Below the pieces are notes generated by a model, which worked only from the letters and a program-made list of their open reading frames with translations, was not told the origin of the DNA and searched no databases. The position numbers and the translations under genes are program-made. Source: an uncultured Clostridia bacterium (GTDB taxonomy: Bacteria > Bacillota > Clostridia > Christensenellales > CAG-138). Taken from it: DNA of 39,270 bases. Below are positions 10,691 to 24,136 of the stretch, piece by piece. How positions within the stretch are numbered: the first letter of the stretch is position 1; each line of letters starts with the position of its first letter. Where the stretch lies: NCBI GenBank assembly GCA_947166925.1, contig CAMVGD010000009.1:1-39270 (forward strand). Direction: 5' to 3'.

Positions 10691-10777
10691 GCGCTTTCAG
10701 CGCAGTGATATTTGCCGCTATGCGGCAAGTGATATCTGCTTCGCAGGTGATATCTTTCCTGCGGGAAAGTTCATGTA
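10691..10777 (+). repeat. hairpin array, TGATAT-linker type (array 2)
   Basis: The array begins with the base after the proS stop. Palindromes GCGC-TTTCA-GCGC, TTGCCGC-TAT-GCGGCAA, CTGC-TTC-GCAG and CTTTCC-TGC-GGGAAAG are joined by linkers AGTGATA, GTGATAT and GTGATAT. The final module is a true terminator, given separately. Confidence 0.85.
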
Positions 10778-10809
10778 GATTCTCCGAGAGATCGGAGAAT
10801 CTTTTTTTT
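10778..10809 (+). terminator. intrinsic terminator of proS, abutting a TTACAA operator
   Basis: The perfect stem GATTCTCCGA-GAGA-TCGGAGAATC is followed by eight T. The last T residues are also the first bases of the first TTACAA box of the next promoter. Confidence 0.92.
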
Positions 10810-10871
10810 ACAACTCTGTTACAACTATGTGACACTTTTGTGACGTTTCGGACGAATTTCGATGCTATTCT
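10808..10871 (+). promoter_or_regulatory. TTACAA-box operator and promoter of the lipoprotein pair
   Basis: Four 6-bp boxes are each separated by exactly 5 bp: TTACAA (10808), TTACAA (10819), TGACAC (10830) and TGACGT (10841). They are followed by GGACGAATTT and a -10 TATTCT (10866-10871). No -35 sits at normal spacing, as expected for a promoter that needs an activator bound over that position. The layout, repeats with 11-bp period, is that of OmpR/PhoP-type regulators such as Bacillus PhoP (TTHACA-N5). Confidence 0.75.
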
Positions 10872-10903
10872 CATCTTGAAAAACAGAATGGGGGAACTCT
10901 GCC

Positions 10904-12451
10904 ATGAAACGAATCTTTGTTTTGCTGTTTGCGGTCTTGCTGCTGATTGCCTGCCAGCCCACGCCGGAAACGGAGTTTGTGACGCACAAGGACACCGAGG
11001 AGATGCTTGAAAAGGCGGCGGCGACGCCGGTTTCCGACGTTGTGGGCTTCGCGGGCGGCACGGAACAGAACGGCGAACTGCCCGAAGCGCCGCACATCCG
11101 CGAACGGTATCAGATCCCGGAAACGCTTTCCGAAACCGTCACCGAAGCGGACGGGCATTTTACGGTCAACATCGACGCGCGGGTCGAGGTCCCGGACGTT
11201 GCCGATATCCCCATCATCCGCGTGGAGCACGGGACGTTTACGCAGGAAGAGATCACGCGCATCTTCAACGCGCTGACGGGCGGGCGCACGATGTACCTTA
11301 ACAGCAATGTGATGACAAAATCGCAGATCGCCGACACGATCGCGTGGCTCGAAAACCAGCTGAACGACCCCGCGCTGCGCGCCGAACTCGACGAAGAGGA
11401 CCTTGCATCCATCCCGGAGTCGATCGCGGAGCTGAAGGAGCTGTGGCAGACCGCACCGGACACGGTCGACGAGGACGTTTGCGACGGCACGATCGGCGTC
11501 ATGCAGATCGAATACGATGGCAAAAAGGTCACGCGTTACGGCTTCGACGCGGTCTCGCGCGACGAGCAGCCCCGGCTGATCGTTCAGCTGACGATTCCGG
11601 GGCAGGATGAGATCAGCAGTCACCGGCTTGAAGATACGTATCTGTCCGTCATGAACACCCGCTCGGCTCTGTACGGCGGCGAGGGAGACGTGGACGCGCA
11701 TACGCCGAAGATCGCGATCCGCGATCCCGAAAACCCCGCGGAGCTTGCGGCATATCCGTTTATCACCTACACCCCCGCGCAGGCGATGGCGGACACGGAG
11801 GCGTTCTTTGCGTCCGCGGGCTTCCCCGAAATCAGGGCGGATTCAATTATGTGCTATCCGGATACCAAAAGCGAGCAATGCGGCTACCGCGTCAGCTGCG
11901 TGCGCTCGGTCGCGGGCGTTAAAAATGCCTTTCTCGGCAGGATGATGTCGACCAGAGGGACCCCTGCCGGGGATCAGGTCTTTGCGCCGAGATGGGAGTA
12001 TGAGAGCATTTCCGTCTGCATCGACGAGCAGGGCGTCTACATTCTTTCATGGCATGCGCCGCTTGGGATCAGGGAGACCGTGCTGTCTGCGTCGAATCTG
12101 CTGCCGCTTGACGAAATCATGAAGCGGTTCAAATGTCAGATCTGGATCGAGCACAAGCCGTGGCTCATTTTGGACGAATCGAAGGTGATCGAATCGGATT
12201 ACCCGTCCGATATGCATATGGAGATTACGCGCATTTCGCTCGGCTTACAGCGCGTGATGGAAAAGAACCGGTTCGATACGGGGCTGCTCGTGCCGGTATG
12301 GAACTTTTACGGCACGACAATGATCACGCGTACGAACGTCAAAACGCGCGAAACGCGTGAGGAGCCGCATTATCAATATATGAATGATTCGCCGATCATC
12401 TCGATCAACGCGATCGACGGCAGCATTATCGACCTGAACAAAGGATATTGA
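10904..12451 (+). CDS. lipoprotein, DUF6034-like, paralogue A
   Basis: This 515-aa exported lipoprotein (MKRIFVLL, lipobox LLIAC, Cys17) belongs with 12461-13960 and 18342-19868. Shared traits are C-x-x-TPE at the mature N-terminus followed by an F(V/I)..KD motif, the segment ERYQIPET, a strand pair DGHFTVNIDA..EVPDV..IPI.RVE, and a C-terminal signature SINAIDGSIIDLNKGY. From memory it resembles DUF6034, lipoproteins of unknown function in Clostridia; this naming is tentative. No enzyme motif is seen. The start has GGGGGA at 10890-10895. The next gene starts 9 nt after its stop, so the two form an operon under the TTACAA-box promoter and probably belong to the regulon of the nearby two-component system. 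Confidence 0.85.
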   Translation: MKRIFVLLFAVLLLIACQPTPETEFVTHKDTEEMLEKAAATPVSDVVGFAGGTEQNGELPEAPHIRERYQIPETLSETVTEADGHFTVNIDARVEVPDVADIPIIRVEHGTFTQEEITRIFNALTGGRTMYLNSNVMTKSQIADTIAWLENQLNDPALRAELDEEDLASIPESIAELKELWQTAPDTVDEDVCDGTIGVMQIEYDGKKVTRYGFDAVSRDEQPRLIVQLTIPGQDEISSHRLEDTYLSVMNTRSALYGGEGDVDAHTPKIAIRDPENPAELAAYPFITYTPAQAMADTEAFFASAGFPEIRADSIMCYPDTKSEQCGYRVSCVRSVAGVKNAFLGRMMSTRGTPAGDQVFAPRWEYESISVCIDEQGVYILSWHAPLGIRETVLSASNLLPLDEIMKRFKCQIWIEHKPWLILDESKVIESDYPSDMHMEITRISLGLQRVMEKNRFDTGLLVPVWNFYGTTMITRTNVKTRETREEPHYQYMNDSPIISINAIDGSIIDLNKGY

Positions 12452-12460
12452 GGTGAGAAA

Positions 12461-13960
12461 ATGAAACGCATGATTTTGATTTTATCGGCGCTTGTATTGC
12501 TCCTTGCCTGCGTGCCCACGCCGACGGAGGACTTTGTGCCGCAAAAGGATACGGTCGCCATGCTTGAAATGGCGAAGACCACGCCTGCGCCCGAGGAGGA
12601 TGTGGTCGGGCGAGTACAGACTGAAGGCGACAGGTACACCGCGCTGCCCCTGCCGTCGCTTAAAGAACGCTATCAGATCCCGGAGACGTATCGGTATCAC
12701 GCCGATCTTGCGGATGGACACTTTGTCCTGAACGTCGACGCCAAGGTGCTGGTGCCGGACGTTTCGGCGATCCCGATCGTGCGCGTCGAGCGGAGCGGCT
12801 TCGATCCGGCGTTCATCCGCACCCTGTTTCAGAACCTGTGCGGCGATGCAGAGTTCTATTATCTCGACCGCACCTATACAAAGACGCAGATCGCCGAGCG
12901 CATCAAATACCTTTCGGAAAACATTTCGGACGAGCAGGCGTACAGCCGTGAGCACGGCGCGGAAAGCCTTGCCGACGTCAAGGCGGAGATCGAACGGCTG
13001 AAGGCAAGCTATGCCGACGCGCCGGATTCCGTCGAGCCGGTCCGCTGTTACGGCGAACAGCAGACGATCGCGCACAACTATATCACAAACGGCGCAGACG
13101 GACCGGTTTCCCATGAATCCACCTCCTTGGGCATCGAGGCGTATACGAAGGCGATGGACCGTTGGTTCGTTTTGCTGAACACGGACCCGGATTCTCCGCT
13201 GGGAAACAGGAAGGGTGCGTATCTGATATACGGAAAAGTCAAGAGCCGCCCGGATGAGATCGGATGCTTCCCGGTTCCCGACACGTATCAGAACGACAGC
13301 TACACGCCGCAGCAGGCGAAAGCGGACGTCGAAGCGTTCCTCAAACAAAACGGAATGGATGACTTTGCGGTCTGGTCGGTCCTGTACGCGCCGGATCAGG
13401 TCAAGGAACAGCCGGACGATCCGATGTATTGGGTGAAATGCGTGCGCACGGTCAACGGCGTGAATACGTCGTTTATCCGGGGGCAAACGTGGGACACGAC
13501 TGATATCTTGGGCCCGATGTGGGAATATGAAATCCTGTCGTTCTGGATGGACCGCGACGGCATTGCCGGCATGGACTGGCATGCGCCGATACAAGTGTGC
13601 GACACGGTCGTGGAGAACGCGAATCTGCTGCCGTTCGACAAGATCATGAAGATCTATCTCAAAATGGTCAACACGAAATTTGCCGCCGCAATGAACATCA
13701 CCGAGCCGGACCTGAAGTACGGCGCAACGACGCAGAATCAATACGACATCGACCGCATCGAGCTTACATTGCAGCGCATTCAGGAGCCGAACGAATGGGA
13801 CAGCGCGCTGCTCGTGCCGGTGTGGAGCTTCTACGGCGTCAACACGCGCACCGAGGTCGAGGACTATATCGAGACGACCGAAAGCACCTATCCGTACGAG
13901 CCCATGCTCTCGATCAACGCGATCGACGGCACGGTGATCGACGTGCGGAAAGGATATTGA
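12461..13960 (+). CDS. lipoprotein, DUF6034-like, paralogue B
   Basis: This 499-aa lipoprotein (lipobox LLLAC, Cys17) is the closest paralogue of the preceding gene. Shared stretches include KERYQIPET, DGHFVLNVDAKVLVPDVS, TKTQIAERIKYL, V(K/S)CVR(T/S)V.GV..(S/A)F and, at the end, LSINAIDGTVIDVRKGY. The start follows AGGTGAG closely, 9 nt after the previous stop, so it depends on the same promoter. Function unknown; outer-face location is inferred from the lipobox. No terminator is visible after it, only a hairpin array (13996-14073), so some transcription may run into the response regulator gene. Confidence 0.85.
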   Translation: MKRMILILSALVLLLACVPTPTEDFVPQKDTVAMLEMAKTTPAPEEDVVGRVQTEGDRYTALPLPSLKERYQIPETYRYHADLADGHFVLNVDAKVLVPDVSAIPIVRVERSGFDPAFIRTLFQNLCGDAEFYYLDRTYTKTQIAERIKYLSENISDEQAYSREHGAESLADVKAEIERLKASYADAPDSVEPVRCYGEQQTIAHNYITNGADGPVSHESTSLGIEAYTKAMDRWFVLLNTDPDSPLGNRKGAYLIYGKVKSRPDEIGCFPVPDTYQNDSYTPQQAKADVEAFLKQNGMDDFAVWSVLYAPDQVKEQPDDPMYWVKCVRTVNGVNTSFIRGQTWDTTDILGPMWEYEILSFWMDRDGIAGMDWHAPIQVCDTVVENANLLPFDKIMKIYLKMVNTKFAAAMNITEPDLKYGATTQNQYDIDRIELTLQRIQEPNEWDSALLVPVWSFYGVNTRTEVEDYIETTESTYPYEPMLSINAIDGTVIDVRKGY

Positions 13961-13995
13961 ACGCCGGGGCTGCGCAAAGATGTTCGCCTTGTCGC

Positions 13996-14073
13996 ATGAA
14001 TTGACCTGACGGTCATGAATTGTTCCTGCGGAACATGAATTATCTTCGACATGAATTGCGGCAAAGCCGCATG
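13996..14073 (+). repeat. hairpin array, ATGAATT-linker type (array 3)
   Basis: Linkers ATGAATT at 13996, 14015, 14035 and 14051 alternate with GACC-TGAC-GGTC, GTTCC-TGC-GGAAC, an imperfect ATC-TTC-GAC, and GCGGC-AAA-GCCGC. The array ends three bases before the TTACAA boxes of the response regulator promoter. Confidence 0.85.
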
Positions 14074-14075
14074 TT

Positions 14076-14107
14076 TTACAACTTGGTTACAACTAATATG
14101 TTACAAT
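14076..14107 (+). promoter_or_regulatory. TTACAA-box operator and promoter of the response regulator gene
   Basis: TTACAA (14076) and TTACAA (14087) are separated by 5 bp. A third TTACAA (14101-14106) overlaps a likely -10 TACAAT (14102-14107). The gap between the second box and the -10 is 9 bp, the same as at 16326-16336. This suggests that the regulator controls its own gene. Confidence 0.7.
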
Positions 14108-14126
14108 ACACCTGAGGAGGGGGCAT

Positions 14127-14780
14127 ATGGCACGGATTTTGGTGATTGAGGATGAATACGCGATCAACGATCTCATCGCGCTGAACCTCGGTATGGTGGG
14201 ACACACGGCGGTGCAGGCGTACACCGGAAGGGAAGCGATCAAGGCAGCGCAGGAGACGCCGTTCGATCTTCTGATCGTCGATGTGATGCTGCCGGACACG
14301 GACGGCTTCAAGGTGTATGAGAAGCTCAAGGGCACGCCGGCGATCTTCGTGACCGCGCTCGGTGAAACCGCGGACAAGGTCAAGGGCTTCGAGCGCGGCG
14401 CGGACGACTATATCGTCAAGCCGTTCGAGATGACGGAGCTTCTGCTGCGCGTCGAGGCGGTGCTGCGCCGCACGCACAAGAGCGAAAGCTGCTATCGGAT
14501 CGACGATCTTGTGATCGACTTTGAGGCGAAGACGGTGACGAAGGGCGGCGAGCCGGTCGATCTCACCATGCAGGAATACGCGCTCTTGGAGGTCCTTGTC
14601 AAGAACCGCAACATCGCGCTGTCGCGGCAGAAGCTGATGCGCGAGGCGTGGGACGTTTCTTTCTTAGGCGAGTCTCGTACGATCGACGTGCACATCCAGA
14701 GGATTCGCAAGAAGCTCGGACTGGACGAACGGATCAAAACGGTCTACCGGCTTGGATACCGGTTTGAGGAGATGCCGTGA
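14127..14780 (+). CDS. OmpR/PhoB-family response regulator
   Basis: DNA-binding response regulator of 217 aa. The receiver domain (1-115) has the acidic pair E8/D9, phospho-acceptor D52 in LLIVDVMLPD, T76 and K98 (YIVKPF). The C-terminal winged-helix domain (about 120-217) has LTMQEYALLEVLVKN, SRQKLMREAWD and the recognition region RTIDVHIQRIRKKLG, ending VYRLGYRFE. It is phosphorylated by the kinase encoded next (GTGA overlap). Its own promoter and three others nearby carry TTACAA direct repeats with an 11-bp period, the spacing bound by tandem OmpR-family dimers, so it is the natural candidate to bind them. Strong ribosome binding site GAGGAGGGGG. Confidence 0.96.
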   Translation: MARILVIEDEYAINDLIALNLGMVGHTAVQAYTGREAIKAAQETPFDLLIVDVMLPDTDGFKVYEKLKGTPAIFVTALGETADKVKGFERGADDYIVKPFEMTELLLRVEAVLRRTHKSESCYRIDDLVIDFEAKTVTKGGEPVDLTMQEYALLEVLVKNRNIALSRQKLMREAWDVSFLGESRTIDVHIQRIRKKLGLDERIKTVYRLGYRFEEMP

Positions 14781-15913
14781 AGCTCAGACAAAAAAGCTAT
14801 GTATTGACGGTGGCGCTTGTGGCGGCGGTGCTGTTTGTCAGCACGTTTGTTCTCGTGCTGCAGAATCTGCGGGCGACGTTCAGCGCGATCGAATCACGCG
14901 CGATCGGCGAGGAAAAGGCGCTTGCGCTGTCGGTCGACGGGATGCTGGCGCAAACGCCGGAGCAGAACCGCGCCGCATACGTGCGCGGCTTTGCGCTGTA
15001 TGACAGCAACGGCGCGACCTTTGCGCTGGGACGCGGGGAAAAGACCTGGGTCTCGATCGAGCCGGTCCCGCCCGAAGTCGAGCCCGGCAGGGTGCACCGG
15101 ATCACACAGAACGGACGCACCGTGCTTGCAATGGCGGATACGCTGTCGGACGGCGTATGGCTGCGCTTCGGGCTCGACGTGACCGACGAGCTTGACCGGA
15201 CGGTGCGGCAAGCGATCGGATCGGTGCTCGTTTGCACGCTTCTGACCGCCGGCATTGCGGCGGCGCTGTATTTCATGTTAGAGCGCGTCAACCAGCCGGT
15301 CGAACGGCTTGCGCACGAGCTTCGGACGCCGCTGACCGTCATTCGCGGCTACGGCGAGCTTCTGGAGCGCGCCAAGCTGACGCCGGAGCAGCAGCACACG
15401 GCGGCAAGCTATATCGTATCGGAGAGCGAACGGCTCGGCGAGATCTCGCAAAAGCTTCTGACCCTTGCGGACGCGCGCAAGAACGTGTTTCAGCCGGAGC
15501 GCGTAAAGCTCAACGACCTTGCGGCGCACCTGAAGCAAACCTATCCGACGCTCGAAACGGAGATCGGATGGGACACGATGACTGCGGACCGTGCGCTGAT
15601 CCTCAGCATGCTCGGCAACCTGATCGGCAACGCCGTCAAGGCGTCCGACCCTGGCGCGCCGGTCAGAATGCGGGCGACGCCCGGCGTGATCGAGATCATC
15701 GATCACGGTTCCGGCATGACGCCGGAACAGCTCCGCTACGTCAACGACCCGTCGCATGCGAAAAATCCCTCGATCCGGAGCGGGCTCGGCGTGCCGCTGT
15801 GTCACGAGATCGCCGCGCTCCACAGCGCGACGCTGCGGTTTGCATCCAAGGAGGGCGAGGGAACGACGGCGACGGTCCGGTTCGGAGCGGATGCGGCGCC
15901 TATGGCGCAGTGA
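14777..15913 (+). CDS. sensor histidine kinase without HAMP domain
   Basis: Membrane kinase of 378 aa, partner of the preceding regulator; it starts with GTG overlapping the regulator stop. TM1 is at about 8-28, an extracytoplasmic sensor region of about 115 residues follows, and TM2 is at about 146-167. The phospho-accepting His180 lies in ERLAHELRTPLTVIRGY only a dozen residues after TM2, so there is no room for a normal HAMP; only the phrase NQPVERLAHE remains. The catalytic domain has the N box (GNLIGNAVKAS), EIIDHGSGMT and SGLGVPLCHEI. The last five residues (APMAQ) are encoded by the first hairpin of array 4, so repeat sequence forms the end of the gene. The sensed signal is unknown. 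Confidence 0.94.
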   Translation: MKLRQKSYVLTVALVAAVLFVSTFVLVLQNLRATFSAIESRAIGEEKALALSVDGMLAQTPEQNRAAYVRGFALYDSNGATFALGRGEKTWVSIEPVPPEVEPGRVHRITQNGRTVLAMADTLSDGVWLRFGLDVTDELDRTVRQAIGSVLVCTLLTAGIAAALYFMLERVNQPVERLAHELRTPLTVIRGYGELLERAKLTPEQQHTAASYIVSESERLGEISQKLLTLADARKNVFQPERVKLNDLAAHLKQTYPTLETEIGWDTMTADRALILSMLGNLIGNAVKASDPGAPVRMRATPGVIEIIDHGSGMTPEQLRYVNDPSHAKNPSIRSGLGVPLCHEIAALHSATLRFASKEGEGTTATVRFGADAAPMAQ

Positions 15914-15982
15914 TATCCGCGCTGCGCGCGGGTGATAGATGCCCTTCGGGCATGTTCAGGACGATTCTCCTTGCGGAGAATC
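15896..15982 (+). repeat. hairpin array, TGATAT-linker type (array 4), overlapping the kinase 3' end
   Basis: GCGCC-TAT-GGCGC (15896-15908, coding), linker AGTGATAT which supplies the stop codon, CCGCGC-TGC-GCGCGG, linker GTGATAG, ATGCCC-TTC-GGGCAT, then GATTCTCC-TTGC-GGAGAATC. The last module is nearly the proS terminator stem but has no T-run after it. Confidence 0.85.
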
Positions 15983-15994
15983 ATGGGATCATAC

Positions 15995-16096
15995 CCCCCG
16001 TCAGTCACCTGACGGTGACAGCTTCCCCACCCTGGGGGAAGCCTCTGCGTGAGCGCAGCCAAAAGCCTTCCCCCTATGGGATTCGCGCGCATTCTT
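15995..16096 (+). repeat. cluster of palindromic intergenic repeats
   Basis: Consecutive hairpins GTCACC-TGAC-GGTGAC, GCTTCCCC-ACCCT-GGGGAAGC and CTGCG-TGAG-CGCAG, then CCTTCCCCCTATGGG. They are of the CTTCCCC class seen across gut Clostridia. No gene was found here. Confidence 0.65.
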
Positions 16097-16145
16097 GCCC
16101 TCCCTGTGTAAGGGAGGGTGGCGAGGAACGAGCCGGGAGGGTTGT
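16097..16145 (+). repeat. CCCTCCCTGTGTAAGGGAGGG-family element, left copy (plus orientation)
   Basis: The stem CCCTCCC/GGGAGGG is followed by TGGC, a short variable part, then GGGAGGGTTGT. The inverse copy lies at 16207-16260. Confidence 0.75.
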
Positions 16146-16147
16146 CA

Positions 16148-16207
16148 ATGAATCGGCTTTCGTGAAGGATTGTCCAGCGGACGTGAATTGCGGCAAAACC
16201 GCGTGAA
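16148..16207 (+). repeat. hairpin array, RTGAATT-linker type (array 5)
   Basis: ATGAATC, a degenerate unit, GTCC-AGC-GGAC (16172-16182), GTGAATT, GCGG-CAAAA-CCGC (16190-16202), GTGAA. The array is enclosed by two inverted palindromic elements. Confidence 0.75.
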
Positions 16208-16260
16208 CAACCCTTCCGGGTTCACTGCGTTCACCCACCTCCCCTTACACAGGGGAGGCA
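16207..16260 (-). repeat. CCTCCCCTGTGTAAGGGGAGG-family element, right copy (minus orientation)
   Basis: Read on the minus strand it has a CCTCCCC stem, TGTGTAA loop, GGGGAGG, GTGGG and an ending GGAAGGGTTGT. This mirrors the copy at 16097-16145. Confidence 0.75.
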
Positions 16261-16287
16261 AGAAAAGCCGAGCAGGCTCCGACGATT

Positions 16288-16341
16288 TTACAACTCTCTT
16301 ACAACTCTGTGATGACTCTGTTACAAGTTCCATGCTACGAT
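16288..16341 (+). promoter_or_regulatory. TTACAA-box operator and promoter of the membrane-anchored protein gene
   Basis: Boxes TTACAA (16288), TTACAA (16299), TGATGA (16310) and TTACAA (16321) are each 5 bp apart. A -10 TACGAT at 16336-16341 lies 9 bp after the last box. The bases around the -10 (TTCCATGCTA) match those at 10866 (TTCGATGCTA). Confidence 0.75.
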
Positions 16342-16367
16342 GGGATCGCAGAAAGGAGGCAAATGCC

Positions 16368-17936
16368 ATGAAAACACTCTTACACAAGCACAAGGTGCTT
16401 CTGATCACGCTTTCCGCGGTCCTGTGCCTCGGCATCTTTTCCGGACTTTTGCTCACTGGCGTGATTCGCTTCTCGAAGGAAGGAAGCACGTTTGCGACCG
16501 TCGCCGACGCGAAGACGGAAGCAAAGATGCAGACAAGCGAGACCGAAGCGGAATATGACCCGGAAAACGGATCCGTCGAGGACCTGAACAGGTCGGAACC
16601 GACGCCCTCGCCTGCGGCGCAGGGCGCAAAGCTCTCCGCGGAACAGATCAAGTGGATCACGGAGGACGTGCAGAGACGGAGAGAACGGGTGATCCCGATC
16701 CGGTCCAGCATCTGGATCGCCGACAACCGGTTCCTGTGGACCGATCAAGAGCCGAGCGCGGAACAGACTGCTGCCGCATGTAAAGAGGCGGACCGGCTGA
16801 CGCAAATCCTGTTCGGACGGTCGTACGCGGAACTGACCGGATATGAACCGGACAGCGCGTATACAGCGCTTTTCACCGACGCTTCGGGCGAACGCGACGC
16901 GTTTCTGATCACGCGCGATCCCGCCGGCGTGTACATCCTGGCGCTGCGTGCATCGGATTATTCGCTGATCTGTGCAGACCTTCTGACCTATCCGGAGGGT
17001 AAGGCGGTCGACCGTGAGAAGGAGAATATTGCGCTTGCGGAACAGCTCGGATACCAAGCGAAGCCGATCCGGACACGGTCGGGGATGCAGTTTGAATATA
17101 CCAGCGAGCTGGTTTATTCGTACACGACCGACACGGACACCTGTCTGACCTTTGCGTACATCGGCGACAAGCTGTGGCAGGTCGCGGTCTTCCCGAGCCA
17201 GAATGCGATGCTCGAAAGCGAGTACTTCCTTGCGGACCTGCAGAACAGCTTTTCGGAAAAGGCATATCCGCAGCATTTCGTCGAGGCGGAACCGCCGGAA
17301 TTGGACGAAAGCAAAATGGCGAACGTCATGAAGATCGAAGACATGCTTTGCACGCTCTATCAGGATCTTTCCGGTGAGAAGCTCTATGCCGGAAACATTC
17401 AATGGACGTTCTACCGCGACGAAAGCGGCGTACGCGAGGACTGCTGGGAGCTTAAGGGTGACGGGTTCGCGATGATCGTATCGGCGTATTCGCGCGATCT
17501 GATCTCGTTTACCGGCACCATTCCCTGCAAGGACCTGCAGGACGTTCCGTATGAAAGATGGGGCGAGAAGGAGTACGAGGACGCAACGACGATCATTGCG
17601 CAGGATTTCATCTGCGCGCTCGGCATGTACGGCCCGGATGAAACAAACACGCACGGTAAGGGTCTGAAGGAGGTCAGCGTCAACGCGGTCGTGGACGGTA
17701 TCGTCTGCACGATGGATATCGAGCTTGAGGACGGCACCTGGTACGAGTGCGAGTTCCGCAACGGCGTGCTGAAGGAGATCTGGCATTTTGCGAACGACAG
17801 GATGTTCATGGAAGGTCCCATGACCGGCTGGGTTGCGGACGCTGTGTACATCAACGAAGTGACCGGTAAGCCGTTTATTCCGGATTACCGCGACTGGGAC
17901 GGCGATTTCCACGTCACGGCACGCCCCGAAAACTGA
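16368..17936 (+). CDS. membrane-anchored extracytoplasmic protein of unknown function
   Basis: This 522-aa protein has a single N-terminal membrane anchor (VLLITLSAVLCLGIFSGLLL) and no lipobox, then an acidic low-complexity linker (about 40-90) and a large soluble region outside the cell. I recognise no family; alternating strands such as YTALFTDASGERDAFLITRD and CLTFAYIGDKLWQVAVFP hint at repeated PepSY-like or beta-propeller-like modules, which is only an impression. It does not share the INAIDGSI ending of the neighbouring lipoproteins. The ATG at 16368 follows AAAGGAGG (16352-16359); the frame upstream of it runs through repeats and is not coding. Its promoter carries four TTACAA boxes, so it probably belongs to the same regulon. 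A terminator follows. Confidence 0.8.
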   Translation: MKTLLHKHKVLLITLSAVLCLGIFSGLLLTGVIRFSKEGSTFATVADAKTEAKMQTSETEAEYDPENGSVEDLNRSEPTPSPAAQGAKLSAEQIKWITEDVQRRRERVIPIRSSIWIADNRFLWTDQEPSAEQTAAACKEADRLTQILFGRSYAELTGYEPDSAYTALFTDASGERDAFLITRDPAGVYILALRASDYSLICADLLTYPEGKAVDREKENIALAEQLGYQAKPIRTRSGMQFEYTSELVYSYTTDTDTCLTFAYIGDKLWQVAVFPSQNAMLESEYFLADLQNSFSEKAYPQHFVEAEPPELDESKMANVMKIEDMLCTLYQDLSGEKLYAGNIQWTFYRDESGVREDCWELKGDGFAMIVSAYSRDLISFTGTIPCKDLQDVPYERWGEKEYEDATTIIAQDFICALGMYGPDETNTHGKGLKEVSVNAVVDGIVCTMDIELEDGTWYECEFRNGVLKEIWHFANDRMFMEGPMTGWVADAVYINEVTGKPFIPDYRDWDGDFHVTARPEN

Positions 17937-17951
17937 ATCCTCTGCGCAAAC

Positions 17952-17984
17952 GAGCGACCGGCAAACCCGGTCGCTCTTATTTTC
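17952..17984 (+). terminator. intrinsic terminator
   Basis: GAGCGACCGG pairs with CCGGTCGCTC around CAAAC, followed by TTATTTT. Confidence 0.9.
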
Positions 17985-18019
17985 TGCACCTGTTTGCACA
18001 GGAAAGCCGCGTGCATGCG

Positions 18020-18086
18020 ATCCCAAAAGCCCTCCCCTCCGAGGGAGCGCTCAACTCTGTGCCCTCGGCGTCCCGTTTGCGAGTGA
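18020..18086 (+). repeat. degenerate palindromic repeat (CCCTC...GAGGG)
   Basis: AAAAGCCCTCCCCTCCGAGGG resembles a decayed copy of the CCTTCCCC/CCCTCCC element family. The rest of this stretch up to array 6 shows nothing else. Confidence 0.45.
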
Positions 18087-18201
18087 ATGAATTGCGCTTA
18101 CACGCATGAATAGGCTTCGCCGTGAATTGACCTGACGGTCATGAATAGGATTCGCCGTGAATTGTTCCTTCGGGACATGCAGGGCGTCCGGGAGGACGCC
18201 C
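18087..18201 (+). repeat. hairpin array, RTGAATW-linker type (array 6)
   Basis: Linkers at 18087, 18106, 18122, 18141 and 18157 (ATGAATT, ATGAATA, GTGAATT, ATGAATA, GTGAATT) alternate with an imperfect GCG..CGC, GGC-TTC-GCC, GACC-TGAC-GGTC, GGA-TTC-GCC and GTTCC-TTC-GGGAC. A bigger hairpin GGGCGTCC-GGGA-GGACGCCC closes it. The GACC-TGAC-GGTC unit is identical to the one in array 3. Confidence 0.82.
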
Positions 18202-18246
18202 CCTACACGGTCATACTTGTTCGCGACAGGGAACACGACCTTGTTT

Positions 18247-18310
18247 TTACAACTTCGATACAACTATCTTACATCCTTGTGACGTTTTGGACGAATTTGG
18301 GCGGTATGAT
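18247..18310 (+). promoter_or_regulatory. TTACAA-box operator and promoter of lipoprotein paralogue C
   Basis: Boxes TTACAA (18247), ATACAA (18258), TTACAT (18269) and TGACGT (18280) have exact 5-bp gaps, then GGACGAATTT, and -10 TATGAT at 18305-18310. First box to -10 is 58 bp, identical to the promoter at 10808. The stretch TGACGTTTYGGACGAATTT is common to both. Confidence 0.78.
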
Positions 18311-18341: not shown

Positions 18342-19868
18342 ATGAAACGACTATGGATATTGCTGCTTGCGGCGCTGCTGCTTGCCGCGTGCGTGGCGAC
18401 GCCGGAGTCGGAGTTGATCGTGAATAAGAACTACGGCGTTGCGGAACAAAAGCTGAACGAGCTGTACACCGATACGGTCGGGACCGCGGACGAGCCGCAG
18501 AACGGAGCGCTTCCGCGCGATCCGCTTGCGCCGCAGGTCTTTTTGGATCGCTGGCAAAAGGAGCCGTATCGAACGGATTTTACGGCGCTGGAAACGACGG
18601 GCGCCCGAATGGAGGGCGATCGGAAGATCGTTGACACGCGAGAGGTGCACGGCACGCTGCAGCTTACGATCGACGCCGCGATCGGGCAGAAGGCGGACGG
18701 GCTGTATCCGGTGTACCGGACGCGGACGACGACGCTCGGGAAGGCGCAGACCACGGCGATCCTTCAAAACCTCTTTGCCGCGCCGACCGAGGTATACGTC
18801 TATGAAAGGACAAAGGAAGAACTGGACGCGGAGTTTCAGGCGTATCTCGATCTCGTGCAGGAAAAGCGCGAATGGGACGCAGCGGGAAGACCGGATCGCG
18901 ACGATTGGGACGAGTATGTGCCGACCGAGGAGGAGGTCGCGGAGCGTTCGCAGCAGTATATGGCGGAGATCGCCGCGGCGCCGGACAGGCTCGAAACGCG
19001 GACGGTTTCGGATTATGCCGATGTGCCGTACGACGTCTGGAGCGTCTATACGCTTTCGGACGGGCACGCGCTCTCCGTGCATGCCTCCGAAACGGGTGTG
19101 AGCGCCGTCGTCGACAGAGGGATCGTCTATCCGTCGTACGAGTATGAATGGGACAAGAAACACAAGGAGGGCGATTATCGGCACTGGAAGGACGTCGAAA
19201 TGCCGCGCGAGGATGCGGATCGTTTGCTCGAAGCCGCGCTCTCCCGCACGGGGCTTGTTGGCTTTTCCGTGACCTGGGCGTATCCTGCAAACCTGATGGG
19301 CGAGAAGAACGGAAAGACCAAAGCGCTTGCGACCGGCTGGTCCTATAAGCTGCACCGGGATTACGGCGGCTATCCCGTGCCGGACGTCAACTGGCAGCTC
19401 GACCGGAGCCTGAACTACGAAAACGACCGGGCGGAAACGTACGCCGCGCCGATCATGACCGAAATGCTCGACGTCATGGTGGGACCGAACGGTGTGCTGA
19501 GCTTCACCTGGTACAACCCGCGCGAGATCGTCGATCTGGTCAACGAGAACGTGGAGCTTCTGCCGTTCGATACGATCGCGTCGCGTGCGGAGACCGCGAT
19601 CACGACGCTGACGAACCCGCTGCATCTGCGGCGGCATTCGCTCGAATGGTACGACACGCAGGGCTGTATTCCGGTCACGGTCCACCGGGTGATCCTCTCG
19701 ACCTATACGATCCGCGAGCGCAACGCGGACACGTTCTTTGAAATGCCGTGCTGGCTCGTCTTTTTCGGAGAGGACGACACGGACCGGCACAACATGGACA
19801 TGGGCTACGACTGTCTGATCCTCAACGCCGTGGACGGCTCGATCGTGCATCCCGACGCGGGATATTGA
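18342..19868 (+). CDS. lipoprotein, DUF6034-like, paralogue C
   Basis: This 508-aa lipoprotein (MKRLWILLLAALLLAAC, Cys17) is more diverged than paralogues A and B. It keeps the same plan: CVATPESELIVNKN at the mature start, a central LQLTIDA strand, and the C-terminal signature CLILNAVDGSIVHPDAGY. The ATG at 18342 is nine bases after AAGGAAGGGG; an in-frame ATG at 18333 touches that ribosome binding site and is less likely. Its own TTACAA-box promoter is nearly identical to that of the A/B operon. Function unknown; presumably anchored on the outer face of the membrane. A hairpin array begins at the base after the stop codon. Confidence 0.83.
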   Translation: MKRLWILLLAALLLAACVATPESELIVNKNYGVAEQKLNELYTDTVGTADEPQNGALPRDPLAPQVFLDRWQKEPYRTDFTALETTGARMEGDRKIVDTREVHGTLQLTIDAAIGQKADGLYPVYRTRTTTLGKAQTTAILQNLFAAPTEVYVYERTKEELDAEFQAYLDLVQEKREWDAAGRPDRDDWDEYVPTEEEVAERSQQYMAEIAAAPDRLETRTVSDYADVPYDVWSVYTLSDGHALSVHASETGVSAVVDRGIVYPSYEYEWDKKHKEGDYRHWKDVEMPREDADRLLEAALSRTGLVGFSVTWAYPANLMGEKNGKTKALATGWSYKLHRDYGGYPVPDVNWQLDRSLNYENDRAETYAAPIMTEMLDVMVGPNGVLSFTWYNPREIVDLVNENVELLPFDTIASRAETAITTLTNPLHLRRHSLEWYDTQGCIPVTVHRVILSTYTIRERNADTFFEMPCWLVFFGEDDTDRHNMDMGYDCLILNAVDGSIVHPDAGY

Positions 19869-19953
19869 GCGCCTGCGGCGCATTGATGTTTGCCGCTTTG
19901 CGGCAAGTGATACCTGCTTCGCAGGTGAAATGTTCCCTTCGGGAACGCTCAGG
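19869..19953 (+). repeat. hairpin array, TGATAT-linker type (array 7)
   Basis: GCGCC-TGC-GGCGC directly after the stop codon, ATTGATG, TTGCCGC-TTT-GCGGCAA, GTGATAC, CTGC-TTC-GCAG, GTGAAAT, GTTCCC-TTC-GGGAAC. The order and several units repeat those of array 2 after proS. Confidence 0.85.
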
Positions 19954-20000
19954 AAGATTGCGCGCTGCACATCAACGCGCTCGACGGCAGTATCATGTAA
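19950..20000 (+). pseudogene. remnant of the 3' end of a fourth DUF6034-like lipoprotein gene
   Basis: One frame reads QEDCALHINALDGSIM then TAA. This matches the C-terminal signature of the three lipoproteins (for example DCLILNAVDGSIV in the gene just upstream and LSINAIDGTVIDV in paralogue B). There is no start, no ribosome binding site and no upstream coding sequence, because array 7 lies directly before it. It looks like the surviving tail of a tandem duplicate, or a segment left after recombination between paralogues. The match is short (about 12 residues), so chance is not excluded. Confidence 0.55.
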
Positions 20001-20001
20001 T

Positions 20002-20055
20002 AAAAACGGCAAACGAAAAGGGTGCTGAGACGTCCTCAGCACCCTTGCTGTTTTT
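20002..20055. terminator. two-way intrinsic terminator between convergent genes
   Basis: AAGGGTGCTGAG (20018-20029) pairs perfectly with CTCAGCACCCTT (20035-20046). TTTTT follows on the plus strand (20051-20055), and AAAAA precedes (20002-20006), serving as the U-tract for the minus-strand exporter operon. Confidence 0.92.
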
Positions 20056-20059
20056 GGCT

Positions 20060-21313
20060 TTATTCGTGACGCAGCGCTTCGATCGGGTCGAGGCGCGCCG
20101 CGCGGTAGGCAGGGATCGCGCCGAAGAACATGCCGATCACGAACGAGAATACGACCGTTGCGGCGACGATGACCCAGCTGATGAAGATCGGCACGCCGGA
20201 CATCTTGGAAATGCCGTAGGCGAGTATGATGCCGACGATCACACCGAGGATGCCGCCGAGGCAGGTCAACACGCCCGCTTCGATCAGAAACTGCGCCGAG
20301 ATGCGCCGTCTGCGCGCGCCGAGCGCTTTTTTGAGTCCGATCTCCGGCGTGCGCTCGGTGACCGACACCAGCATGATGTTCATGACGCCGATGCCGCCGA
20401 CGATCAGCGAGATGCCCGCAACGAGGATGAGCTGCCGGTTTGTGGCGCTCGAAAGCTCCTGAAGGTTCTTTGCCTGCTCCAGAAGGTCCTCGCTCTTATA
20501 GCGGACCTCCGGATTCTCCTGCCGGATGGTGCCGTTCAGAATCTCCTCGGCTTTTCTGCCCGCAACCGTCATGGAATCGGTATCGACCGCGCGGATCACG
20601 AGCGAGCGCGGTTCGTCGTAGCGGAACAGCACGGGCCACGTCGAGAACGGGATCAGCACCTTGCCGCCGGACGACTGGTTATAGGTGAAATACTCGTCGA
20701 GCGTGCTCACCTTCGGGCGGAAGTCCGAGGCGCGCGTGAATTCGCCGATCACGATGTACGGCTCGCCGCAGATGTCGATCGTTTTGCCGATCGGATTCGC
20801 GCCGGAAAACAGCGCCGCGGAGACCGTTTCGTCGATCATGGCGACCTTGCGGAAATGCGTGCAGTCGCTGTCCGTGATGCTGCGTCCCGAGCGGACGGTG
20901 TAGCCGTACACGGACGGATAGGACCGGTCGATGCCGTAGACCGTGCCGGCGGAAAGCGCGTTGCCGCCGCTCCGGATCTGTCCGTAGGCGTCACGCTGCG
21001 CATAGTACGCGGCGCTCGCGACCTCCGGGATCGCGCGGATCTCCTCGAGCGTGCTGTCGGTCAGCGCCGTGATATAGTCCGGCGCGGTCGCCCATGCGGT
21101 CTCGAACGGGTAATCGCCCTGATACAGACGCACGGTCACGACGTTCGAGCCCGAGCCGACCAGGTTTTCCTTGATCTGTTCGTTCGTGCCCATGATCGTG
21201 GACGAGATCGCAATGATGCTTGCGATGCCGATGATGATGCCGAGCATCGTCAGGGCGCTGCGGAGCTTGTGGGAACGGATGCCGTCAAAGGCTTCGCGGA
21301 AATTTTCCAACAT
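20060..21313 (-). CDS. MacB/YknZ-like ABC transporter permease (FtsX fold)
   Basis: This is the last gene of the exporter operon, 417 aa. The N-terminus MLENFREAFDGIRSHKLRSALTMLGIIIGIASII is the classic MacB start with TM1. A large extracytoplasmic MacB_PCD-type domain follows (about 45-280, with SVYGYTVRSGRSITDSDC). Three C-terminal helices hold the conserved GGIGVMNIMLVSVTERTPEIGLKKALGARRRRI stretch. It works with the ATPase at 23459 and the adaptors to drive export by mechanotransmission. The ATG at 21313 has AAGGGGG at good spacing; a GTG nine bases upstream is possible but sits on that ribosome binding site. It ends at the two-way terminator. Confidence 0.94.
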   Translation of the reverse strand: MLENFREAFDGIRSHKLRSALTMLGIIIGIASIIAISSTIMGTNEQIKENLVGSGSNVVTVRLYQGDYPFETAWATAPDYITALTDSTLEEIRAIPEVASAAYYAQRDAYGQIRSGGNALSAGTVYGIDRSYPSVYGYTVRSGRSITDSDCTHFRKVAMIDETVSAALFSGANPIGKTIDICGEPYIVIGEFTRASDFRPKVSTLDEYFTYNQSSGGKVLIPFSTWPVLFRYDEPRSLVIRAVDTDSMTVAGRKAEEILNGTIRQENPEVRYKSEDLLEQAKNLQELSSATNRQLILVAGISLIVGGIGVMNIMLVSVTERTPEIGLKKALGARRRRISAQFLIEAGVLTCLGGILGVIVGIILAYGISKMSGVPIFISWVIVAATVVFSFVIGMFFGAIPAYRAARLDPIEALRHE

Positions 21314-21326
21314 CGGCGACACCCCC

Positions 21327-23462
21327 TTACCAGCCGCCGTAGAACAGACTGTTCTTCGCGTCCTCGACCGGACTGCCTTCCTTGCAGTTCTTGTCGTACG
21401 GGAACGCGATGCGGTCCTCCGACGTGATCGGCGTGTCGATCAGCTCGACGTATTCGTTCATATGTCTGCCCGTCTTCACGACGCGCTTCTCCAGCAGACC
21501 TTCTTCGTTCGCGACATAGATGCAGGTCTCGCCGTCGGCGTCCTTCAGGAACGCCTCGTGCAGGAAGACGGTGCCCTGCTCATAGAGCGAGGACAGGTTC
21601 GAGAATTCGATGTATTCGCCGACGCCGGGCGTGGCGCCGCCGGTGATGTCGAGCACCAGCAGGTAACCGGACGAGTTCGGATTGCCGCTGCCCGAATAGC
21701 TCGTGCTGATCGGCATCGTGCCGACCTTCGAGACCGTCGCGGTCACATTGTCCTGCATCTGGTAGGAGAAGCCGGTGAGCTCGGTCCCGACGGGGTAGTT
21801 AAAGAGGTCGTCTTCGCCGACGATCACGCTGATGTGCAGTCCCGTTCCGCCGCGGATCTCGATGAGCACGCCGCCGTTCTGCACGTCGTCGGGGGACATG
21901 ACGGTCATCACGGTGCCGTTGACCTCGGAGAACAGAATGCCGTCCAGACCGCTGCGCTCCGCCTTTGCGATATCGAGCACGAGCTGACGATAGCGAAGCT
22001 CGTCGTCACGGATCCGCTCCGTAAGCTCGTTGAGCTGCATATTGGGGCTCGGCGTCGGAGTCCTGCGGTACGGCGTCGCGGTCGGCTTCTTTGTAGGCGT
22101 CGCGGTCGGCTTCTTTGTAGGCGTCGCGGTCGGCTTCTTCGTTGGCGTCGCGGTCGGCGTCGCGGTCGGGGTCGCCGTCGGCTCATTCGTAAGCGTCGCG
22201 GTCGGCGTTTTTGTAGGCGCCGCGGCCGGCGTTGTTGTCGGCGTCGCGGTCGGTTTTGTCGTCGGCGTCGCAGTAGGCGTTGCCGTCGGGGTCGCCGTTG
22301 CGGTCGCGGTCGGCGTGGGCGTCGGGGTGTCGGTCGGGTCCGGGGTATCCGTCGGGTCCGGGGTATCGGTCGGGTCCGGGGTATCCGTGGGGTCCGGGGT
22401 GTCCGTAGGCGTGGGCGTCGGGGTCGCAGTCGGCGTCGCGGTCGGGGTCGCCGTCGGCGTCGCCGTGGGCGTAGGCGTCGGGGTGTCCGTCGGTTCGGGC
22501 TGCAGTACGGTCGTGGTAAAGGAGTACGCGCCTTCCGGCGTGAACAGCAGATCGACCGTAAAGCGCACCGCCTCGAGCTTCACATAAACGTCCTGCTCCT
22601 GTTCGGCGGCGGCTTCACACTGCGCGCACAAAAATGCGTACGGAACGACCGCTTCGGACGCGTACGCGTAGACGAGCGGATCGGCTTCCGTGCCGGTGCC
22701 CGCCTTCGGGGTTTTCAGGTCCGCGGTTCCGGTATCGTTCCCGACCGTGACCGAGAAGGAAAGCGTTCCTTCCGGCTGAGCGGAGAACAGGATCTCCGCT
22801 TCGGGCTGGACGATCTTTGCAAACACGGCGGTCTCCCGCTCTGCGGATTGTTGCAGCAGCCACTGCATGAACGCGAAGCTGACGCGGTCCTCCGCGCCGA
22901 GCGTATACACGTAGGGATCGTTCTCGGCGCCGGTGCCGGGGACCGGCTGATCGGGATCCGGCAGGTCTGGCAGGGGCGAAGGATCGACGGGATCGAGCCG
23001 GATGATGCGTCCGCGGCGCGGCGCCGTCGAGCTTGTCGGCGCGGGCGTCGGGGTCAGGAGCGGCTTCGGATAATCTTTTTTTGCAAGCTTCTTGTACTCG
23101 GCATATTCGGAGCGGAGCTCGTTTTCGAGCTTCAGAAGCTCGATCTGGCTTTGCTCGAAGGAGAGCTGCGCGCGCGTCGCGTCGTAGCGCAGCAGCGGAT
23201 CGCCGATGGAAACGACGTCGCCGGGGCTTACGAGGATCTCGAGCACCGTGCGGTCGGCGGTCTTTGTCACGACCTGCGAGGCGTCCGAGGTCACGATGCC
23301 GTACAGGTAGGTCTGATTCGGCATGTACGACATCATCCACTGCATGGCGGGGTAGACCTCGCAGGGGGTCGGCTTGCGGAACAGCAGATAGGTGGAGACG
23401 CCGCCGATCACGAGACCGACGCACAGCACGCAGATGAGAATGATCCTGAGCGTCCGTTTCAC
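21327..23462 (-). CDS. large HlyD-like adaptor whose hairpin is opened by a Thr/Pro-rich insert
   Basis: Membrane fusion/adaptor protein of 711 aa, about 300 longer than usual. A signal anchor (about 5-28) leads to a biotinyl-lipoyl half ([17 protein letters not shown], 78-94) and the first hairpin helix (101-130). The second helix (476-505) and the other lipoyl half ([16 protein letters not shown]) come only after an insert of about 345 residues. The insert holds two related domains (about 177-241 and 255-319), each starting GTG.E.DP.VY and ending (P)EG..SF..TV, then about 150 residues of [12 protein letters not shown] and PTKKPTAT repeats. The C-terminus is the usual beta-barrel and membrane-proximal part. 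GTG start overlapping the ATPase stop (GTGA). The second adaptor in the operon. Confidence 0.88.
22074..22145 (-). repeat. 24-bp tandem repeat, three copies, encoding PTKKPTAT
   Basis: On the plus strand the unit reads GGCGTCGCGGTCGGCTTCTT plus TGTA, three times with one variant copy (TCGT). It lies inside the large adaptor and is prone to length change. Confidence 0.8.
22323..22412 (-). repeat. 18-bp tandem repeat, four to five copies, encoding DTPDPT
   Basis: On the plus strand the unit is close to TCGGTCGGGTCCGGGGTA. Near-identical DNA copies, unlike the looser PTAT codons around them, indicate recent expansion. Confidence 0.8.
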
Positions 23463-24136
23463 TCCGCGTCACCTCCCGTCAGAACGCCGTCGTAGATATG
23501 CAGCATGCGGGAAGCGCGTTCCGCCACCGCGTGCTCGTGTGTGATCATGATGATCGACATGCCGCGTTCGTGCAGCCCATCGAAGATGTCCATGATCTGC
23601 TGACCGGATCTGGAATCCAGCGCGCCGGTCGGCTCGTCGGCAAGCAGCAGCTTCGGTCGCGTGCAGATCGCCCGCGCGATCGCAACGCGCTGACACTGGC
23701 CGCCGGAAAGCTGCGTGGGGTAAAAATCCATACGGTCCTTGAGACCGACCTCGCAAAGCGCCTGCTCGGCGCGTTCGCGCCGTTCCCGCTTCGGCACGTT
23801 TCCGTACATCAGCGGCAGCGCGACGTTTTCCCACGCGCGGCGGCGCTGCAGAAGGTGGAACGACTGGAACACGAATCCGATCTTTTCGTTGCGGATGCGC
23901 GCCATCTTCACGTCGGACGCGCGGCTGTTGTCGACGTCCTCAAAGTAATACGTTCCCGACGTGGGCGTGTCGAGATAGCCGAGGATGTTCATCAGCGTCG
24001 ATTTGCCCGAGCCGGAGGGTCCCATGACCGCGTAGTACGCGCCTTCCTCCATGGTAAAGTTGACGTCGTGCAGCACCGGAACGGGATGTTCCGGCGTGCC
24101 GTACGTTTTTTCGATGTGTTCGAGACGGATCAGCAT
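23459..24136 (-). CDS. MacB/LolD-type ABC transporter ATP-binding protein
   Basis: ATPase of the exporter, 225 aa. Walker [10 protein letters not shown], a Q-loop with [14 protein letters not shown], signature [14 protein letters not shown], Walker [13 protein letters not shown] and the H-loop ITHEH are all intact. The family (LolD/YknY/MacB ATPase) powers FtsX-fold permeases. The ATG at 24136 has GGAGG at 5-nt spacing and begins one base after the first adaptor's stop; the longer frame upstream overlaps that gene and is not used. Its stop overlaps the second adaptor start. Confidence 0.96.

Follow-up and report, generated by a model that had tools for sequence, protein, structure and literature searches.

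Which regulator reads the direct repeats that precede several genes of this locus, and which genes are placed under its control? The stretch analysed here (the window; 39,270 nucleotides of contig CAMVGD010000009.1, assembly GCA_947166925.1, from an uncultured Clostridia bacterium of the Christensenellales) carries four promoters in which hexamers resembling TTACAA recur with an 11-bp period, one of them in front of the gene for an OmpR/PhoB-type response regulator, RR1. A sequence-only reading had taken these promoters for a local regulon bound throughout by RR1. The arrays lie exactly where it had placed them, yet their relatives are found genome-wide and two of the four contain a further type of module. 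Judged from sequence, the system is a real regulon, predicted to work like an operator of the PhoB/PhoP/WalR type under a regulator of the OmpR/PhoB type, and the modules nearest to the -10 element of its longer promoters probably belong to a second regulator, RR3.

Arrays of 11-bp repeats in four promoters

The four arrays, their -10 elements, the terminator-like hairpin behind proS and the genes for RR1, its kinase HK1, P16368 and three lipoproteins are all on the plus strand. In the promoter of RR1, two TTACAA modules (14075–14092, the first hexamer starting at 14076) are followed by the -10 element TACAAT (14102–14107) with TGT in front; this element was taken as the -10 because TATAAT stands at the equivalent position in 8 of 10 other scored orthologous promoters. 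The promoter of P16368, a membrane-anchored protein encoded behind RR1 and its kinase, reads TTACAA/TTACAA/TGATGA/TTACAA from 16288 (modules at 16287–16326). Its first, second and fourth modules are of RR1 type, the third, at 16310, is conserved and matches TTACAA at just three of six positions, and its -10 element is TACGAT (16336–16341), preceded by TGC. The other two arrays precede lipoprotein genes starting at 10904 and 18342. That of gene 10904 begins with two RR1-type TTACAA hexamers (10808–10813 and 10819–10824, within 10807–10824), continues with the intermediate modules TGACAC and TGACGT (10830–10846) and ends in a promoter-proximal module, GGACGAATTT (10850–10859), before the -10 element TATTCT (10866–10871), again with TGC in front. 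That of gene 18342, starting at 18247, comprises the RR1-type TTACAA and ATACAA, then the intermediate TTACAT and TGACGT (18246–18285), the same proximal module GGACGAATTT (18289–18298) and the -10 element TATGAT (18305–18310).

From the last TTACAA-like box to the -10 element there are 9 bp at 14102 and 16336 and 19 bp at 10866 and 18305, as had been reported. As to the statement that none of the promoters has a proper -35 element, a consensus scan (9 of 12 positions) gave 4 promoter-like sites against 3.3 in shuffles, and one pair did overlap an array, TTTACA at 14075 with TATGTT at 14097.

A chance origin of the arrays was rejected on their excess over shuffles, control patterns and control hexamers. 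Within the window, TTACAAN5TTACAA with at most two mismatches has 7 matches (six in the four arrays, one elsewhere) where 0.37 are expected, a count reached in 0 of 100 shuffles; genome-wide, with at most one mismatch, 25 matches, among them some plainly unrelated sites, face 5 for the pattern in reverse. In 285 kb of the own genome (G000, 90.7% complete, its contigs denoted by C numbers), a sample enriched in that much of it was chosen around matches, pairs of box-like hexamers outnumber those of control hexamers 28 to 1 at 11 bp, 14 to 2 at 22 bp and 6 to 1 at 33 bp. The boxes are thus not common at random positions. Their design has a likeness to the 11-bp direct repeats of PhoP/PhoB type. 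A 12-bp period was rejected, the signal at 12, 24 and 36 bp coming mostly from one tandem repeat; as a negative control, a pattern with that period gave 45 matches, fewer than the 98 in its own control. The tandem repeat itself (L077:9459–9597, on contig C41) has ATACAA at most of its 12-bp steps, and C41, by eye more AT-rich than the rest of the genome, is possibly a contaminant.

Conservation of the promoters

Boxes of this kind are also kept in orthologous promoters. Two good boxes, the second agreeing with the consensus at no fewer than five of six positions, precede RR1 in 15 of the 18 genomes read. In the P16368 promoter, boxes 1 and 4 are kept in 18 of the 18 read (a set that includes G034 and not G005), 9 bp separating box 4 from the -10 element, and box 2 reaches at least 5/6 in 15; the third module of this promoter type is TGANGA or a close variant, with 3/6 agreement in 14 of 14, and lies about at the -35 position. 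In a genome of another genus, G034, whose RR1 is 63% identical, the same boxes stand at the same distance before both RR1 and P16368. Among 30 scored promoters without a GGACG element (see below), 28 have 9 bp between the end of the last TTACAA-type box and the -10 element; the scored set was picked for strong boxes and omitted seven RR1 and four P16368 promoters read separately.

A genome-wide regulon of DUF6034 lipoproteins

The regulon had been called local, a description which the rest of the genome contradicts: all 11 exact TTTTACAACTNNNWKACA sites lie upstream of a correctly oriented gene, namely nine DUF6034 genes, RR1 and gene 16368. This pattern was modelled on known sites, and when two mismatches are allowed its 28 matches compare with 14 for the control. 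Slightly weaker arrays stand upstream of a lipoprotein-like gene with a NAGPA domain (C2) and of the gene for a protein with four SH3_3 stretches (C46), and weaker ones in front of the DUF6034 frames C61 and C3:25945. The own genome holds 37 DUF6034 reading frames, some truncated by contig ends, and several of these genes belong to a run in which a gene further upstream bears an array.

Three members are encoded in the window, at 10904–12451 (515 amino acids; PF19499, E-value 1.8e-71), 12461–13960 (1.9e-69) and 18342–19868 (508 amino acids; 2.1e-30), with scores of 242, 235.2 and 106.5 bits against a gathering score of 27. As only 9 bp separate the first two genes, they are presumably in one operon. 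Profile searches against the PDB for the function of DUF6034 and P16368 gave weak and scattered matches (best E-values 0.0069 and 0.74), and one of 33 DUF6034 members weakly matches YPEB PepSY (E-value 0.017). In the library searched, we found no paper naming DUF6034 and none for Christensenellales combined with two-component systems and lipoproteins.

Further OmpR-type regulators lie next to DUF6034 genes in L246 (G000:C5:47000–60000) and L247 (G000:C28:6000–15000), each with 11-bp arrays of its own (TTACATTTTGATTACAT on C5, TTACGA/AGACGT/TTGCAT on C28); DUF6034 clusters may each be paired with a regulator of different specificity.

A promoter-proximal module and a probable second regulator

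The two spacing classes had been thought to differ by just a helical turn. Instead, the 19-bp promoters hold a module that had not been counted. In seven scored promoters of the own genome, those of genes 10904 and 18342 included, GGACG stands 16 bp before the -10 element, and the hexamer GACGAA (10851–10856 in the promoter of gene 10904) thus ends 9 bp before it; the 19-bp gap in the window is therefore the 9-bp gap plus one module. The same placement of GGACG is found in ten promoters of relatives, with TACGAA or GACGCA there in three more, and even where arrays differ in length by one module the element stays in the 11-bp register. A genome-wide count of GTGACNTTTTGGACGAATTT, allowing at most three mismatches, gives 9 matches, two of which overlap, as against 0 for the control. 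In the 25 scored RR1 and P16368 promoters, GGACG never occurs in the stretch from the boxes to the -10 element.

Modules of this kind also precede RR3, an OmpR-type regulator encoded at G000:C10:3971–4618; of the 22 same-genus genomes, 21 had an orthologue that was read. Its promoter carries a pair of modules, offset by 11 bp, ahead of the -10 element in 22 of 22 genomes, the own one and five without RR1 among them; the proximal hexamer is GACGAA in five (G002, G005, G018, G020 and G021) and GACGCA in three. Downstream follow a kinase gene with a HAMP match (HK3) and a gene for a 257-amino-acid protein, for which no family was found at an E-value of 0.001.

Two matrices were trained solely on each regulator's own promoters, that of RR1 on 11 of the 18 RR1 promoters and that of RR3 on all 22 read; for the RR3 alignment, a hexamer was looked for at 9 bp from a -10-like site, which builds this distance in to some extent, while the conservation is visible independently. 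They split seven promoters of the own genome (10904, 18342, C2, C25, C59a, C92 and C46b) into upstream RR1 modules (10.2–15.9 bits) and downstream RR3 modules (4.5–10.8 bits). In front of gene 10904, the RR1 matrix gives 15.9 and 15.7 bits to the two TTACAA modules and -15.4 to GGACGAATTT, which reaches 10.8 bits under the RR3 matrix. RR1 modules only are found in the promoters of P16368, C34, C36 and C46a and RR3 modules only in C3:26810 (by eye a VanZ-like protein), while C59b is mixed and C61 and C3:26010 are weak. In a nine-base module frame, RR1 modules of the seven composite promoters start at -1, 10, 21 and 32 and RR3 modules at 21, 32, 43 and 54, all equal to 10 modulo 11, so the phase is kept across the junction (two off-lattice matches in the promoter of gene 10904 excluded). 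What is unusual in the system is that two module types share one continuous lattice; we do not claim this to be unprecedented.

Other arrangements were also seen. Upstream of the DUF6034 gene G000:C25:23402, in L027, the order is by eye reversed, with the RR3-like ACGCAT and ACGCAA upstream and one TTACAACT module beside the -10 element. Tandem promoters precede RR1 in L170 (7859–8000) and L171 (628–768), a composite RR1/RR3 promoter lying 92–93 bp upstream of an RR1-only one.

Arrays in genomes with and without RR1

RR1 is present in 17 of the 22 same-genus genomes (at least 59% identity, or a contig-edge fragment in G019), and a homologue of P16368, weak in some, occurs in the same 17. Counting TTACAACTNNNWTACAACT with at most two mismatches gave 169 matches against 13 in controls over the 17 genomes with RR1, 27 against 5 over the five in which it was not detected (G007, G009, G016, G020 and G021), and no excess in 37 more distant genomes (56 against 109, G034 left out). 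Outside the genus, P16368 homologues accompany RR1 in G034 and are found as well in G026 and G031, which have no close RR1. Since G008, G012 and G014 possess RR1 and pattern matches with 0 or 1 DUF6034 match, RR1 and P16368 look like the core of the system and DUF6034 like its variable part.

Proposed mechanism and alternative explanations

We propose that the arrays are probably operators of the OmpR/PhoB type, with RR1 on the upstream modules, RR3 on the proximal ones and both controlling the composite promoters jointly. Each 11-bp module would take up one subunit, in head-to-tail order, and the bound proteins would substitute for the -35 element; given the 9-bp distance, the last of the modules falls at roughly -27 to -22. 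The upstream modules, [T/G]TTACAACT, would most likely be bound by RR1, which probably activates, rather than represses, its own operon, its membrane partner P16368, the dispersed DUF6034 lipoprotein genes and a few genes of other envelope proteins. In the promoters of genes 10904 and 18342 and at least five others of the own genome, the lattice continues into GTGACATTTTG / GACGAATTT modules, which resemble the RR3 promoter and would most likely be bound by RR3 next to RNA polymerase, and the genes behind such composite promoters would then answer to two sensor systems. The claim that RR1 binds all four arrays of the window is accordingly narrowed: for the upstream modules it is likely, RR1 being the most likely binder and probably autoregulated, whereas the proximal modules resemble RR3 boxes, and two genomes (G007 and G009) keep arrays with no detectable RR1 orthologue. 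As a more tentative step, RR1 and RR3 might form a mixed head-to-tail filament on one 11-bp lattice, so that lipoproteins would be expressed only if both sensors agree (an AND gate).

A number of observations weigh against this proposal. Among the RR1 promoters, those of L168 and L172 show a single good box and that of L173 shows no good box, the gap to the -10 element is 19–20 bp in L176 and G005, and some 220 bp separate the array from the start codon in L174. The 9-bp spacing fails in C59b (8 bp) and in C59c (19 bp, with no GACGAA). Many DUF6034 genes are without an RR1-type array (C5, C28, C70, C3:53298, C15, C6, C77 and C84). In the promoter of gene 10904, TGACGT and TGACAC score below 4 bits in their lattice position with either matrix, and the two off-lattice matches reach 6.4 and 4.0 bits. 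The proximal hexamer of the RR3 promoter is TCCGCA or TCCGAA in 14 of 22 genomes, TCCGCA in the own one, and the recognition helices of RR1 and RR3 are largely alike (SRTIDVHIQRIRKKL, TRTLDSHVQRLRRKL). Genomes without RR1 average 5.4 matches to TTACAACTNNNWTACAACT against 9.9 in those with it (one-sided p 0.049), fewer and not zero; G007 (95% complete) and G009 (78%) keep good arrays, such as three perfect boxes in a row at C63:3825 of the former and an array at C68:7206 of the latter, with RR1 found in neither assembly and no RR1, HK1 or P16368 behind proS within 14.6 kb (G007) or 2.6 kb (G009, to the contig end).

The last points bear on which protein binds. Another OmpR-type regulator, present throughout the genus, might read the TTACAACT modules and have RR1 merely as one of its targets: many of these genomes encode several such regulators, and RR3, found nearly genus-wide, has a related core, GTTACA. 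We regard this as improbable. With incompleteness expected to remove any one locus from about 4.1 of 22 genomes, five genomes without RR1 are unsurprising; the contig of G016 ends within proS, and absence behind proS proves little because RR1 lies off the proS contig in G005, G018 and G019; RR1 is possibly missing from the assemblies of G007 and G009. A genus-wide regulator also sits poorly with the lack of array excess beyond the genus and G034, where two of the four matches are precisely the RR1 and P16368 promoters. Rather less doubtful, though still unlikely in our judgement, is that RR1 alone occupies the whole lattice, the proximal GACGAATTT modules being low-affinity RR1 sites that tune the response. 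All modules share a single 11-bp lattice, the similar recognition helices would permit it, boxes of a single Pho regulon vary in sequence and affinity (PMC4415409), and the own RR3 promoter has TCCGCA, not GACGAA, beside its -10 element. This explanation has to contend with the -15 bits of GACGAATTT under the RR1 matrix, with the lack of GGACG in any scored RR1 or P16368 promoter, and with the fact that such modules form the RR3 promoter in every genome read, also in the five where RR1 went undetected (G007, G009, G016, G020 and G021).

Finally, DUF6034 is a large paralogous family, and the arrays could have been copied along with duplicated lipoprotein genes without selection as operators, which is very improbable. 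Across 13 promoters of the own genome (78 pairs), the first 28 bp of the arrays are 76% identical as against 25% in the 55 bp of upstream flank, and flanks are similar in just 2 pairs, apparently via a dispersed repeat; unrelated flanks mean that recent duplication is no explanation for the arrays. They also precede the non-homologous genes of RR1, P16368, the NAGPA protein and the SH3_3 protein, and their spacing to the -10 element is rigid.

With binding by RR1 and RR3 as the preferred explanation, a genome-wide regulon readable from sequence is now assigned to DUF6034 lipoproteins in uncultured Clostridia and tied to a specific two-component system. If true, the mixed lattice would offer a simple natural grammar for the sharing of one promoter between two paralogous response regulators, and the coexistence of RR1-only, RR3-only and composite promoters in one genome makes the specificity and cooperation of paralogous regulators directly testable.

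Comparison with known systems

The PhoP box of Bacillus is TTHACA-N5, and the sequence-only reading had seen its design in these arrays. Regulators of the OmpR/PhoB type bind direct repeats with a period of about 11 bp as tandem subunits in head-to-tail order (PMC4415409, PMC4832192), and for PhoB the model has the -35 region lying under the operator (PMC3348028). The arrays resemble the Pho boxes of PhoB and Bacillus PhoP in both respects, with 11-nt repeat units suited to head-to-tail binding and an operator over the -35 region (PMC4415409, PMC3348028). Unlike in a Pho regulon, RR1 falls far short of the PhoB model TIGR02154 (180.8 against 296.2 bits) and also misses the model NF007546 (130.4 against 471), and the targets of its arrays are DUF6034 lipoproteins and envelope genes. 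In the own genome no PstB exceeds the cut-off (best 156.1 against 343.2 bits), PstB being the only phosphate gene sought and 13 of 14 control genomes being positive. A Pho regulon was rejected since RR1 falls below the PhoB/PhoP model cut-offs and no PstB passes in a 90.7%-complete genome; the earlier view that lipoproteins, not phosphate genes, are the targets stands. Phosphate uptake in this genome may use a system other than the PstB type.

There is also a likeness to WalRK-YycHI, in which YycHI are accessory proteins of the kinase WalK (PMC7355866): genes for a regulator, a kinase and a membrane-anchored extracytoplasmic protein stand in a row. P16368, fixed beside RR1 and HK1, could modulate HK1 as YycH and YycI do WalK, by analogy and not by homology. 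All four arrays fit, on the minus strand, the WalR motif of Staphylococcus aureus, TGTHH-N6-WGTNDD (PMC10746227). This motif is loose: on both strands of the window it has 6 matches, five of them in the four arrays (minus strand), where 3.34 are expected, and 11 of 100 shuffles reach 6. In contrast to WalRK, both RR1 (147.6 bits) and RR3 (182.9) miss the YycF model cut-off of 340 bits, neither P16368 nor the 257-amino-acid protein behind HK3 shows homology to YycH or YycI, P16368 has an RR1-type promoter of its own, and HK1 has no HAMP match. A WalR orthologue was rejected, as RR1 and RR3 fall below the YycF model and no YycH/YycI homologue was found in their operons.

The 11-bp period is shared as well with PhoP of Mycobacterium tuberculosis, which binds 7-bp motifs with a 4-bp spacer as tandem dimers, three or four motifs being bound more tightly (PMC4832192). 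There the box sequence is another one and, according to the same source, a single regulator reads the whole array.

The RR1-HK1-P16368 locus and neighbouring features

RR1 (14127–14780, 217 amino acids) carries Response_reg (E-value 2.2e-21) and Trans_reg_C (2.2e-22) domains, in agreement with the OmpR-type regulator proposed earlier for one of the array promoters; of the 97 NCBIfam models that it matched, it fails to reach the cut-off of any of the 25 listed. The histidine kinase HK1 (14777–15913) has HisKA and HATPase_c domains, two membrane helices predicted from hydropathy with about 110 amino acids between them, and a short linker from the second of these to the phospho-accepting helix. 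P16368 (16368–17936) has one predicted membrane helix, a large extracytoplasmic part and no Pfam family; no family matched the window protein at an E-value of 1, and across 15 members there were just single-member matches at 0.066 or worse.

The order RR1, HK1, P16368 recurs in 13 named relatives (RR1 78–88% identical), one of which is Christensenella sp. UBA3792. Six of the 13 carry rumen, reticulum or omasum as source term, and the host bacterium is probably from a ruminant gut. In nine, proS lies upstream of RR1; it is missing in L166 despite room, and L167, L169 and L171 end too early. In the window, a terminator-like hairpin with a T-run (10777–10809) stands behind proS, and its T-run overlaps the first box of the array at 10808.

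Runs of short hairpins, joined by TGAATTG or GTGATAT (by eye; for example TGAATTGACCTGACGGTCATGAAT), occur at 18088–18157, 13990–14070 and 10705–10770, and other DUF6034 genes are preceded by units like these. The stretch 19748–23495 holds two large reading frames with no Pfam family, and their homologues stand behind P16368 in L169 and L177. At 16092–16264, 30-nt inverted arms around CTCCCCTTACACAGGGGAG, 87% complementary and 113 nt apart, enclose a stretch that is possibly a miniature mobile element; a similar one is also found upstream of C77:8259.

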